A stretch of DNA of 64,000 bases, taken from NCBI RefSeq assembly GCF_900169305.1, contig NZ_FWDP01000003.1, positions 124,001-188,000 of the forward strand, in the 5' to 3' direction. The DNA comes from Marinilactibacillus piezotolerans (lineage in GTDB: Bacteria > Bacillota > Bacilli > Lactobacillales > Carnobacteriaceae_A). Shown here one piece after another: positions 5,832 through 46,244 of this stretch. Position numbers and translations under genes: made by a program. The first letter of the stretch is position 1, and every line of letters begins with the position of its first letter. The notes under the pieces are model-generated. The model searched no databases, was not told the origin of the DNA, and saw only the letters and a program-made list of their open reading frames with translations.

Positions 5832-8424
<2,593 letters not shown>

Positions 8425-28747: not shown

Positions 28748-28839
28748 ATTGTTTTATTTTTTCAATTATTATTCAAAAAATACTTTTTTGTTAATTATTT
28801 TAGGTTCTCTAATCCATTTCGATTGTATAATTTGTTAGC

Positions 28840-29160
28840 GACTAGTTCTAAGAGTTCCGCTACTATTAAAGGGCTCCAATAGCAATATTGCAACTAGTTC
28901 TGATGAATTCGCTTCATGAAGTGGTTCCAATATCCTTATTGCAACTAGTTCTGATGGATTCGCTTCATGAAGTGGTTCCAATTTCCTTATTAGAACTAGT
29001 TCTGACGGATCCGCTTCATGAAGTGGTTCCAATATCCTTATTAGAACTAGTTCTGATGAATTCGTTTCATGAAGTGGTTCCAATATCCTTATTAGAACTA
29101 GTTCTGACGGATTCGCTTCATGAAGTTGTTCCAATACCCTTATTAGAACAACTTCTAAAG
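28840..29160. repeat. Tandem array of 51-bp units
   Basis: The word AACTAGTTC recurs at 28892, 28943, 28994, 29045 and 29096, exactly 51 bp apart, with degenerate units at each end (28841 and 29147). Each unit holds two palindromes: AACTAGTT, extended to AGAACTAGTTCT in the later copies, and CTTCATGAAG. Units differ by only one to four bases. There are no unique spacers between repeats. The array lies between the terminator of the Opu operon and that of the M20 gene, in a convergent gap. Confidence 0.95.
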
Positions 29161-29172
29161 GATAGACCAGAA

Positions 29173-43884: not shown

Positions 43885-44583
43885 TTATTCTGCCATTTTA
43901 GTTGAGATGCCGCTCTGTCCTTCAATGGTTTTCTCTCTTTGATGAAGATAAGCTAGCGCTCGGCAAGTAGTCACATTATACACATTCTGCGCTTTTAACT
44001 CCTCGATTCTGTCAAATTGATCAACCGTCCAGACAGATAAGCGCAATTGATTTTCATGGCAGTATTCGATCCATTCTTTTGAACATAGGCTTTCGTTGAT
44101 ATTCAATGTATGAATATTATACTTTCGACAGAAATAATGGACCACATCAAAATGGGCTTTTTTTAATTGCTTCACTCCACGGATATTCGGCAGACAGTTT
44201 TCGATATTGTAGAAGATTTTATCCCGATCCCATACAGAAACATGTTCAGGATCAACTTTACCTGAAAAGACAACCCGGTCATATAATTCCCACTTATCCG
44301 CTAACCATTTTACTTCGGCTTCAAGCTTTTCTTCTTTTAAGTCACAGTTCACCATAACAGCAGATTTTTTTCGGAAAGTCGTACGGAATAACGTATCTAA
44401 ACTGAGTAACAGCTCAGCTTCTTCATCTGAATGAATAGCGTCGTGCTTCAAGTACAGCTTTCCATTTGACGCTTTGCGCACATCAATTTCTATCGCTGGA
44501 ACAGGATATTCCATCATTTTTTCTACAAATGTCAAGCTGTTATCAGGTGTTCCATCACTTCCGGAATGAGCAGTGAGAATCAT
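43885..44583 (-). CDS. Divergent glycerophosphodiester phosphodiesterase-like protein
   Basis: 232-aa protein with a GDPD TIM-barrel pattern: ILTAHSGSDGTPDNSL in place of the usual HRG-PENT, then IEIDVRKASNGKLYLKHDAIHS with the E-x-D pair and HD, and a C-terminal LRLSVWTVDQFDRIEEL, the WTVN strand of the family. Arg in HRG is Ser and the Glu in PENT is Asp, so activity may be altered or lost. The neighbouring gene at 45244 has the full motif set. ATG at 44583 preceded by AGGAGGCAACCTTA. Confidence 0.7.
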   Translation of the reverse strand: MILTAHSGSDGTPDNSLTFVEKMMEYPVPAIEIDVRKASNGKLYLKHDAIHSDEEAELLLSLDTLFRTTFRKKSAVMVNCDLKEEKLEAEVKWLADKWELYDRVVFSGKVDPEHVSVWDRDKIFYNIENCLPNIRGVKQLKKAHFDVVHYFCRKYNIHTLNINESLCSKEWIEYCHENQLRLSVWTVDQFDRIEELKAQNVYNVTTCRALAYLHQREKTIEGQSGISTKMAE

Positions 44584-44815
44584 TAAGGTTGCCTCCTTCT
44601 ACTAGTCTATTATCCAATTATAAAAAAAGACTGTAAATTTTTTGCTAGCTATCGTGTTAATAAAATTTTGGGAATTTATCAATTTTGTAAAAATTATCTC
44701 TTTACTTGTTCTAGCGCCTTTTGCATTATCAATAACTAAATCTTAAGTATCAGACAAGGCAGCTATTTATTTAATGTAATGAATCTCAGCATCTATTCGA
44801 TCCTTTATTTATCAC

Positions 44816-45161
44816 TTCTCTTTTTATCTCGCTGAATGCGACCCTTATTCAGTACGTTATTTACCGCTTCTCGTTTTATCTCGCTGAATCCCGCCCTTAT
44901 TCAGTGCGTTATTCACCACTTCTCGTTTTATCTCGACGAATTCACCCCTTATTCAGTACGTTATCTACCACTTCTCGTTTTATCTCGACGAATTCAGCCC
45001 TTATTCAGTACGTTATTTACCGCTTCTCGTTTTATCTCGCTGAATCCCGCCCTTATTCAGTGCGTTATTCACCACTTCTCGTTTTATCTCGACGAATTCA
45101 GCCCTTATTCAGTGCGTTATCTACCACTTCTCGTTTTATCTCGCTGAATCCGACCTTTATT
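44816..45161. repeat. Tandem array of 52-bp units
   Basis: Units begin (TTCTC) at 44816, 44868, 44920, 44972, 45024, 45076 and 45128, exactly 52 bp apart; the last unit is incomplete. The units at 44868 and 45024 are identical, suggesting a 156-bp higher-order duplication. Two internal versions alternate (CTCGCTGAATCC and CTCGACGAATTC). Each unit has CTGAAT/ATTCAG-type inverted repeats. No spacers, and not a multiple of three. It fills the gap between two minus-strand GDPD-family genes; 44584-44815 has no gene that I can support. Confidence 0.95.
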
Positions 45162-45167
45162 TAACAA

Positions 45168-45208
45168 CAAAAAAAGACAGATACCTCTGATTTTTACAGA
45201 GATACCTG
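45168..45208 (-). terminator. Terminator after glpQ-like gene
   Basis: On the minus strand CAGGTATCTCTG pairs fully with CAGAGGTATCTG using two G-U pairs, followed by a T run (TCTTTTTTT). Confidence 0.85.
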
Positions 45209-45243: not shown

Positions 45244-45984
45244 TTAAACAGAAGCTGACTGCTTCTCTTGGATTTTTCTTAATCGATTCGGGAAGTCGGT
45301 GATAATTGCATTGATGCCCGCTTTTTCAGCTTTTTCTAGATCAGCTTTTTCATTCACTGTCCATGTGTTGATCTTGAGGTTATATGAATTCGCTACTTCT
45401 ACTAATTCTTCATCCAGGCATAATGCATGCGGATGAATGTAGTCCATGCCCAGCTCTTTAGTCGTCTGAATGATTCGTTCATTGCAGCCGGCGACTAAAA
45501 GGCCAGTTTGAATGTTCGGATTCAACCTTTTTACGCGGACCATATTTCCTCTATGGAAGGACGAAATGATGATTTGATCTTCTAGATGATAGTCTTCGAT
45601 CAGGTCTAAGACCTTTTCTTCTAGTCCAATATTTTCACTTGTAGCTGTTTTTAACTCAATGTTGGTCACAAAGTTTTTATCTTGCACCCAGTCGAAGTAT
45701 TCCCTTAATGTAGGAATTTTTTGTTCTGGCAATCCTGCTTGAATCTGGCAGTTGATTGAATAAGCCTTCAGTTCATTTAGTGTATGATCTGTCAGATGCC
45801 CTTTTCCATTGGTCAATCGTTCCAATGTCTCATCGTGAAACAAAACAACTTCACCATCTTTGGTTAGTTGTGCATCTAATTCAATTCCGTCTGCACCTGT
45901 TTCGTATGCTTTTTCAAATGCGATCATCGTATTTTCAGGATATTGACCGCTAAATCCTCTATGCGCTAAGTTTAAAGTTTTCAT
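45244..45984 (-). CDS. ugpQ: Glycerophosphodiester phosphodiesterase
   Basis: Cytosolic 246-aa enzyme that hydrolyses glycerophosphodiesters to glycerol 3-phosphate and an alcohol. The start LNLAHRGFSGQYPENTMIAFEKA, followed by GADGIELDAQLTKDGEVVLFHDETLERLTNGKG, has all family residues (His, Arg, both Glu, Asp, second His). The C-terminal INTWTVNEKADLEKAEKAGINAIITDFP completes the barrel. The ATG at 45984 fits GAAAGGATCG upstream and the family start; the longer frame from 46047 has no ribosome site. No signal peptide. Confidence 0.92.
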   Translation of the reverse strand: MKTLNLAHRGFSGQYPENTMIAFEKAYETGADGIELDAQLTKDGEVVLFHDETLERLTNGKGHLTDHTLNELKAYSINCQIQAGLPEQKIPTLREYFDWVQDKNFVTNIELKTATSENIGLEEKVLDLIEDYHLEDQIIISSFHRGNMVRVKRLNPNIQTGLLVAGCNERIIQTTKELGMDYIHPHALCLDEELVEVANSYNLKINTWTVNEKADLEKAEKAGINAIITDFPNRLRKIQEKQSASV

Positions 45985-46244
45985 GATAAAATCGATCCTT
46001 TCAAAGTGGTGTTTATCATGTATAAGAAAAAAGTTAATTATGAACACAACAATCTCAGCTCTATGAAATTCAACGGCTGAGCATTGCTGTCAGATGAATA
46101 TGTATGATGCCTATAAGGTTGTGTGTACTGTCTGAAGCAGATTTCAAACTAAGTATACCAATACTTTGTAAATTTAATGTAGGCAGAATTTATCAATTGT
46201 GTAAATGTTAACCTCTTTAGTACTCAACCAATTCTATTTTATAC

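Follow-up and report, generated by a model that had tools for sequence, protein, structure and literature searches.

Intergenic tandem arrays of dyad modules at a 51-52-bp pitch as candidate protein-binding sites in two genera of a bacterial family

The non-coding tandem array at positions 44795-45161 of the window, by which we mean the whole stretch of 64,000 nucleotides analysed here, is one member of a set of arrays that share a period of 51-52 bp, close to five helical turns, and a plan of inverted half-sites. We tentatively favor the view that these arrays are operator-like sites that would align putative protein dimers and serve in local chromosome architecture or as boundaries, instead of being the operators of one promoter. 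The pitch, the dyads, the helical phasing, the freely varying spacers, the lack of within-array compensation between half-sites, the tendency to stop at a whole module and the bias toward gene ends fit architecture sites better than RNA structures, REP elements or conventional operators. What we infer comprises the protein itself, its binding to the modules and the function of the arrays.

The array at 44795-45161 and its locus

Tandem Repeats Finder, period scans and the unit steps delimited a family I array of about seven modules on the plus strand at 44795-45161, with a period of 52 and a higher-order period of 156. Tandem Repeats Finder reported period 52 at 44805-45151 (6.7 copies with 87% matches and without indels) and period 156 at 44805-45161 (2.3 copies, 92% matches), the latter outscoring the former. 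The original prediction of seven units in 52-bp steps was confirmed by the six measurable steps of the array, all of which are 52 bp, as was the identical pair of units three units apart, since the unit at 45012 has the same letters as the unit at 44856. The count of seven was kept but the start was moved, as the array is best read as seven modules from a weak one at 44795. Module 1 (44795-44837) is made of a weak right half-site (score 10.8), a spacer and the left half-site TTATCTCGCTGAAT, while module 2 (44847-44889) is made of ATTCAGTACGTTAT (right half), a spacer of 15-17 bp and TTATCTCGCTGAAT (left half), as located by profile hits. Profile hits also defined module 3 (44899-44941), module 4 (44951-44993), module 5 (45003-45045) and module 6 (45055-45097). 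The left half-site of module 7 (45107-45149) is the end of the array, and the next right half-site is absent (score -16.1). All seven modules are on the plus strand.

The array is located in a non-coding gap between two genes read leftward. The upstream gene (45244-46047, minus strand) encodes a glycerophosphodiester phosphodiesterase (GDPD; Pfam PF03009, E 3e-52), and the downstream gene (43885-44583, minus strand) encodes a divergent GDPD-like protein with a weak match to the same domain (PF03009, E 1.8e-5). The strong intrinsic terminator of the GDPD gene (45178-45208, minus strand), with a 12-pair stem and a T tail, lies between that gene and the array. Beyond the array, a promoter-like site of the GDPD-like gene, TTTACA-17-GATAAT (44609-44637, minus strand), was recognized by consensus match only, at a locus where promoter-like sites are no more numerous than in shuffled sequence. 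With a terminator before the array and a promoter-like site beyond it, the gap is therefore probably little transcribed.

The array is read as non-coding, although the argument first put forward for this, that a unit of 52 bp is not divisible by three and so rules coding out, has a gap: the 156-bp period is a multiple of three, and an open reading frame of 103 amino acids crosses the array. Two other observations speak against coding: across arrays, the longest open frame covers part of the stretch only, and family II includes both 51- and 52-bp units. The closest named relatives found were Marinilactibacillus piezotolerans and M. psychrotolerans, with a phosphoketolase 84-85% identical to that of the genome studied here, and the corresponding gap of both species holds no such array.

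The window contains a second array of the same architecture class, a 51-bp tandem array at 28780-29170 (no strand assigned) that belongs to family III. As first claimed, it is unrelated in sequence to the 52-bp array, no pair scoring above 4 in the comparison of 44795-45161 with 28780-29170. Elsewhere in the window, a perfect hexanucleotide repeat of about nine copies of TTCTGG was observed at 6336-6390.

Sequence families, period and module architecture

Searching the genome with the 44795-45161 array revealed related arrays at other loci, and families were defined by pairwise comparison of unit profiles. A profile built from 47 units on sequence only retrieved 10 family I arrays, located at 540, 773, 782, 788, 796, 820 and 965 kb of C1, at 34.5 and 168.8 kb of C2 (the latter being the 44795-45161 array of the window) and at 370.8 kb of C3. 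A second profile retrieved 13 further arrays (family II), and two arrays of the 51-bp type (family III) were found, at 28780-29170 of the window and at C2:262.5 kb. These three families amount to at least 25 arrays, all at 51-52 bp, with further families besides, and several second-genus genomes have the same pitch. The two outcomes named at the outset as refuting, a genome devoid of further arrays and a period not conserved in relatives, were thus not observed, which supports the original suggestion of a genome-wide periodicity near five helical turns, with nucleoid-protein binding as its putative cause. We also observed one gap (L008:12012-13455) in which a family II array is directly followed by a family I array, both at 52 bp.

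The period was strikingly uniform. A lag scan of about 640 kb of the genome, part of which was picked because arrays had already been found there, revealed 20 non-coding tandem arrays, all with a period of 51 or 52 bp or a multiple thereof, while every other periodic stretch lay in coding sequence and had a period that is a multiple of three. When 20 stretches (400 kb) were picked without prior knowledge of arrays, four held arrays, and all four were at 51-52 bp. Furthermore, in G020, which belongs to the second genus of the bacterial family, 10/10 non-coding arrays found in 396 kb had a period of 51-52 bp or a multiple, and two further genomes of that genus exhibited the same pitch. Arrays of the second genus thus have their pitch in common with those of the genome studied here, but often differ from them in sequence. 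No such arrays were found in 400 kb from four genomes of other bacterial families. Among 188 unit steps, 153 were of 52 bp, 31 of 51 bp and 4 of another length, giving a mean step of 51.8 bp, that is, five helical turns of 10.36 bp. In a third genus (G008), we observed non-coding dyad arrays with a 40-41-bp pitch (L179:13070-13415 and L181:5570-5690, for example CACGCAC...GTGCGTG). These arrays, whose pitch is close to four helical turns, may represent a four-turn version of the element.

Units of families I and II follow a common plan, an inverted pair of half-sites of about 14 bp in which the half-sites are conserved and the spacers are not. The consensus is TTATCTCGCTGAAT-n9-ATTCnGCACGTTATTT followed by a poorly conserved spacer in family I, and TGAGTnCGnAgAAT-n9-ATTnTcgnnACTCA followed by a spacer in family II. 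Most of the 31 arrays tested were more dyad-symmetric than their column shuffles (z up to 8.9); taken by itself, the 44795-45161 array gave a modest score (z 2.7). In the genome, the dyad pair GAAT-n9-ATTC repeated at a 52-bp pitch had 90 forward-strand matches vs 1 at a control pitch of 47 bp, the pattern being palindromic, so that the reverse strand counts as well.

The ends of the arrays are informative regarding the functional unit. In 7/8 scorable family I arrays, the last left half-site is without a next right half-site, whereas the first element is a right half-site in only 5/8. Based on these half-site scores, the functional unit is therefore probably composed of a right half, about 15-17 bp and a left half (44 bp), with successive units joined by linkers of 8-9 bp. 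In family I, this module of about 44 bp with two inverted half-sites reads roughly TAnCnCGCTGAAT. A+T content is helix-phased in these units, as its power is greatest at 10.4 bp, the fifth harmonic of the unit, with values of 0.163 in family I and 0.100 in family II (expected, 0.04), and still reaches 0.084 when family I is left out. An informal look at the unit consensus revealed no consistent GTAG or CGTC tag at the unit end. The arrays are not CRISPR-like, since the spacers themselves recur within arrays, leaving no unique spacers between conserved repeats.

Candidate roles and origins of the arrays

If the arrays acted as RNA, the upstream transcript would carry a row of hairpins at its 3' end that stabilise the message or help to process it, and a substitution in either arm of a unit should be accompanied by a compensating one in its partner arm. 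The dyads can pair, and family II as a whole paired above naive shuffles. However, compensation within arrays did not exceed shuffles, either in family I (726 paired cells vs 732 shuffled) or in family II (736 vs 740, and 642 vs 646 for an alternative dyad), and pairing in the family I alignment was lower than in shuffles. The excess in family II lies between arrays (96 vs 90, P ~0.03), as expected if both half-sites track the changing preference of a protein. At the 44795-45161 array, RNA folding was weak, the minus strand folding slightly better than shuffles (z -2.0) and the plus strand little better (z -1.3). A cmscan of the window against Rfam matched no RNA family to the array, its only find being a T-box leader elsewhere (RF00230; 1713-2000, minus strand). 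Moreover, the upstream GDPD gene has its terminator before the array. RNA hairpins were rejected on the absent compensation within arrays and the weak folding, and we give an RNA function little chance of being the right explanation. That the half-sites do not co-vary within arrays argues instead for a dimeric DNA-binding protein.

Such a protein could be a conventional repressor or activator controlling a neighboring gene, here the GDPD-like gene at 43885-44583, upstream of whose promoter-like site the array is located. This explanation seems very improbable, given that the ten flanking genes examined share no common function and that the arrays prefer convergent gaps, which offer no promoter for such a regulator to act on. 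Convergent gaps accounted for 13 of the 32 arrays with usable flanks vs 43 of 330 long array-free gaps (P 0.0003, a value that is inflated, as our P values are in general, because arrays of one family are not independent).

The distribution of the arrays among genomes bears on their origin. Family I has members in the second genus (z 5-6 in unit-profile comparison), family II in G003, a congener of the genome studied here, and in G020 and G023 of the second genus, and family III has a related array in G020. A genome-wide search detected family II in 7/27 genomes of the bacterial family, representing two genera, and gave a single borderline match in 218 further genomes of the order. Therefore, the arrays are clade-restricted and patchy. 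In G021, what seems to be one family II array occurs twice, at C14:68-320 (contig start) and at C49:86104-86611, with identical hit scores and spacing, which suggests breakage or duplication of arrays during short-read assembly. Within the genome studied here, no family I or II array was found in C1:1-540000, a segment that includes the GC-skew switch, vs 23 elsewhere. Because there are no arrays around C1:400 kb, where the GC skew changes sign, clustering at the replication terminus was ruled out. Separately, among the family I and II arrays, 21 of 23 point the same way with respect to the local GC skew. This is probably an orientation relative to the direction of replication, but it may simply reflect a pyrimidine-rich spacer that tracks strand composition.

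Short, palindromic, intergenic units that cluster near gene 3' ends and are dispersed over many loci could have been copied there as REP/BIME-like mobile repeats, by an enzyme such as a REP-associated tyrosine transposase. We consider this rather improbable: the Y1 transposase (PF01797) is absent from the genome and from four congeners, for which reason REP/RAYT mobility was rejected, and the units are arranged head to tail at a fixed pitch. A plasmid or phage origin was likewise rejected, as the plasmids and phages searched yielded no array matches.

The main rival remains neutral minisatellites, in which one or a few ancestral 52-bp repeats would have spread to many gene ends and then, after divergence, been homogenised through unequal crossing-over, so that the pitch is inherited and functionless. 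Families I and II exhibit recognizable kinship between arrays across loci and genera, the syntenic locus of relatives is without the array, the species distribution is patchy, and higher-order repeats of 104 and 156 bp show unit duplication within arrays. The scarcity of indels was rejected as a mark of selection, since the ratio of indels to substitutions between neighboring units (0.061) is not much below that of ordinary intergenic DNA (0.071) in a comparison that counts compensating gaps. Simple indel counts are thus compatible with neutrality, and shared ancestry and concerted evolution could keep the unit length constant. On the other hand, at least three families without recognizable sequence kinship have the same pitch and dyad plan, conservation falls on half-sites and not on spacers, the ends tend to fall on complete modules, and A+T is helix-phased. 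Taken together, we regard a neutral origin as unlikely, though deserving serious consideration.

According to the architecture-site reading that we favor, each module would be bound by a dimer of a putative DNA-binding protein, and the five-turn pitch would align every dimer along the same helix face. Dimers aligned in this way could bind cooperatively and bend or bridge DNA, forming a compact nucleoprotein block. Such blocks might act as local architecture or boundary elements, a role suggested over that of single-promoter operators because they favor gene 3' ends and convergent gaps. Against this reading, related half-sites differ so greatly among the arrays within a genome that recognition by a single protein of high specificity is difficult to imagine; each sequence family would instead have its own protein, paralogous to the others or evolving fast. 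None of the arrays is essential by itself, since the array is absent at the syntenic locus of relatives and the families are patchy across species. With appreciable doubt, we propose more broadly a chromosome-architecture system specific to a clade of two related genera, in which fast-diverging families of dimer sites form five-turn arrays at gene 3' ends, often between convergent genes, where putative proteins would build face-aligned boundary blocks.

Comparison with known systems

Dispersed intergenic repeats of bacteria are usually put down to mobile elements or slippage, and we found no earlier description of arrays such as these in the open-access literature. Mycobacterial interspersed repetitive units (MIRU) and other intergenic minisatellites are tandem repeats of about 50-100 bp present at many loci. 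The arrays described here resemble them in that tandem repeats of one family occupy many intergenic loci (10 arrays in family I, 13 in family II), but differ by a 51-52-bp period common to unrelated sequences, the dyad plan, the helix-phased A+T and a tendency to stop at whole modules. Tandem operator or centromere arrays, such as parC/parS-like plasmid iterons, consist of protein-binding sites set in rows in helical phase. Unlike these, our arrays are dispersed over many chromosomal loci, none having been found on plasmids, and no partition genes were seen among the ten flanking genes examined.

BIME/REP clusters of Enterobacteriaceae and related REPs have been proposed to play roles in DNA architecture (PMC3733652, PMC3116915). 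Like them, the arrays are short palindromic, intergenic, clustered and near gene 3' ends. In contrast, they reside in a genome without a RAYT-type transposase, their head-to-tail units keep a fixed spacing of five turns, and they are built on a 44-bp module of two half-sites, with several sequence families at one pitch. Phased A-tract and curvature signals of bacterial genomes, in which A+T is phased at about 10-11 bp, have been discussed in relation to nucleoid-associated proteins (PMC3940949, PMC3372288). A+T is helix-phased in our arrays as well; yet while those signals are diffuse and genome-wide, the arrays are discrete tandem rows of dyads. Unrelated families that share one five-turn pitch, a dyad plan and phased A+T in two genera make the question of chromosome architecture directly testable, because the half-sites are defined, so that a binding protein can be sought and the pitch can be shifted by half a turn.
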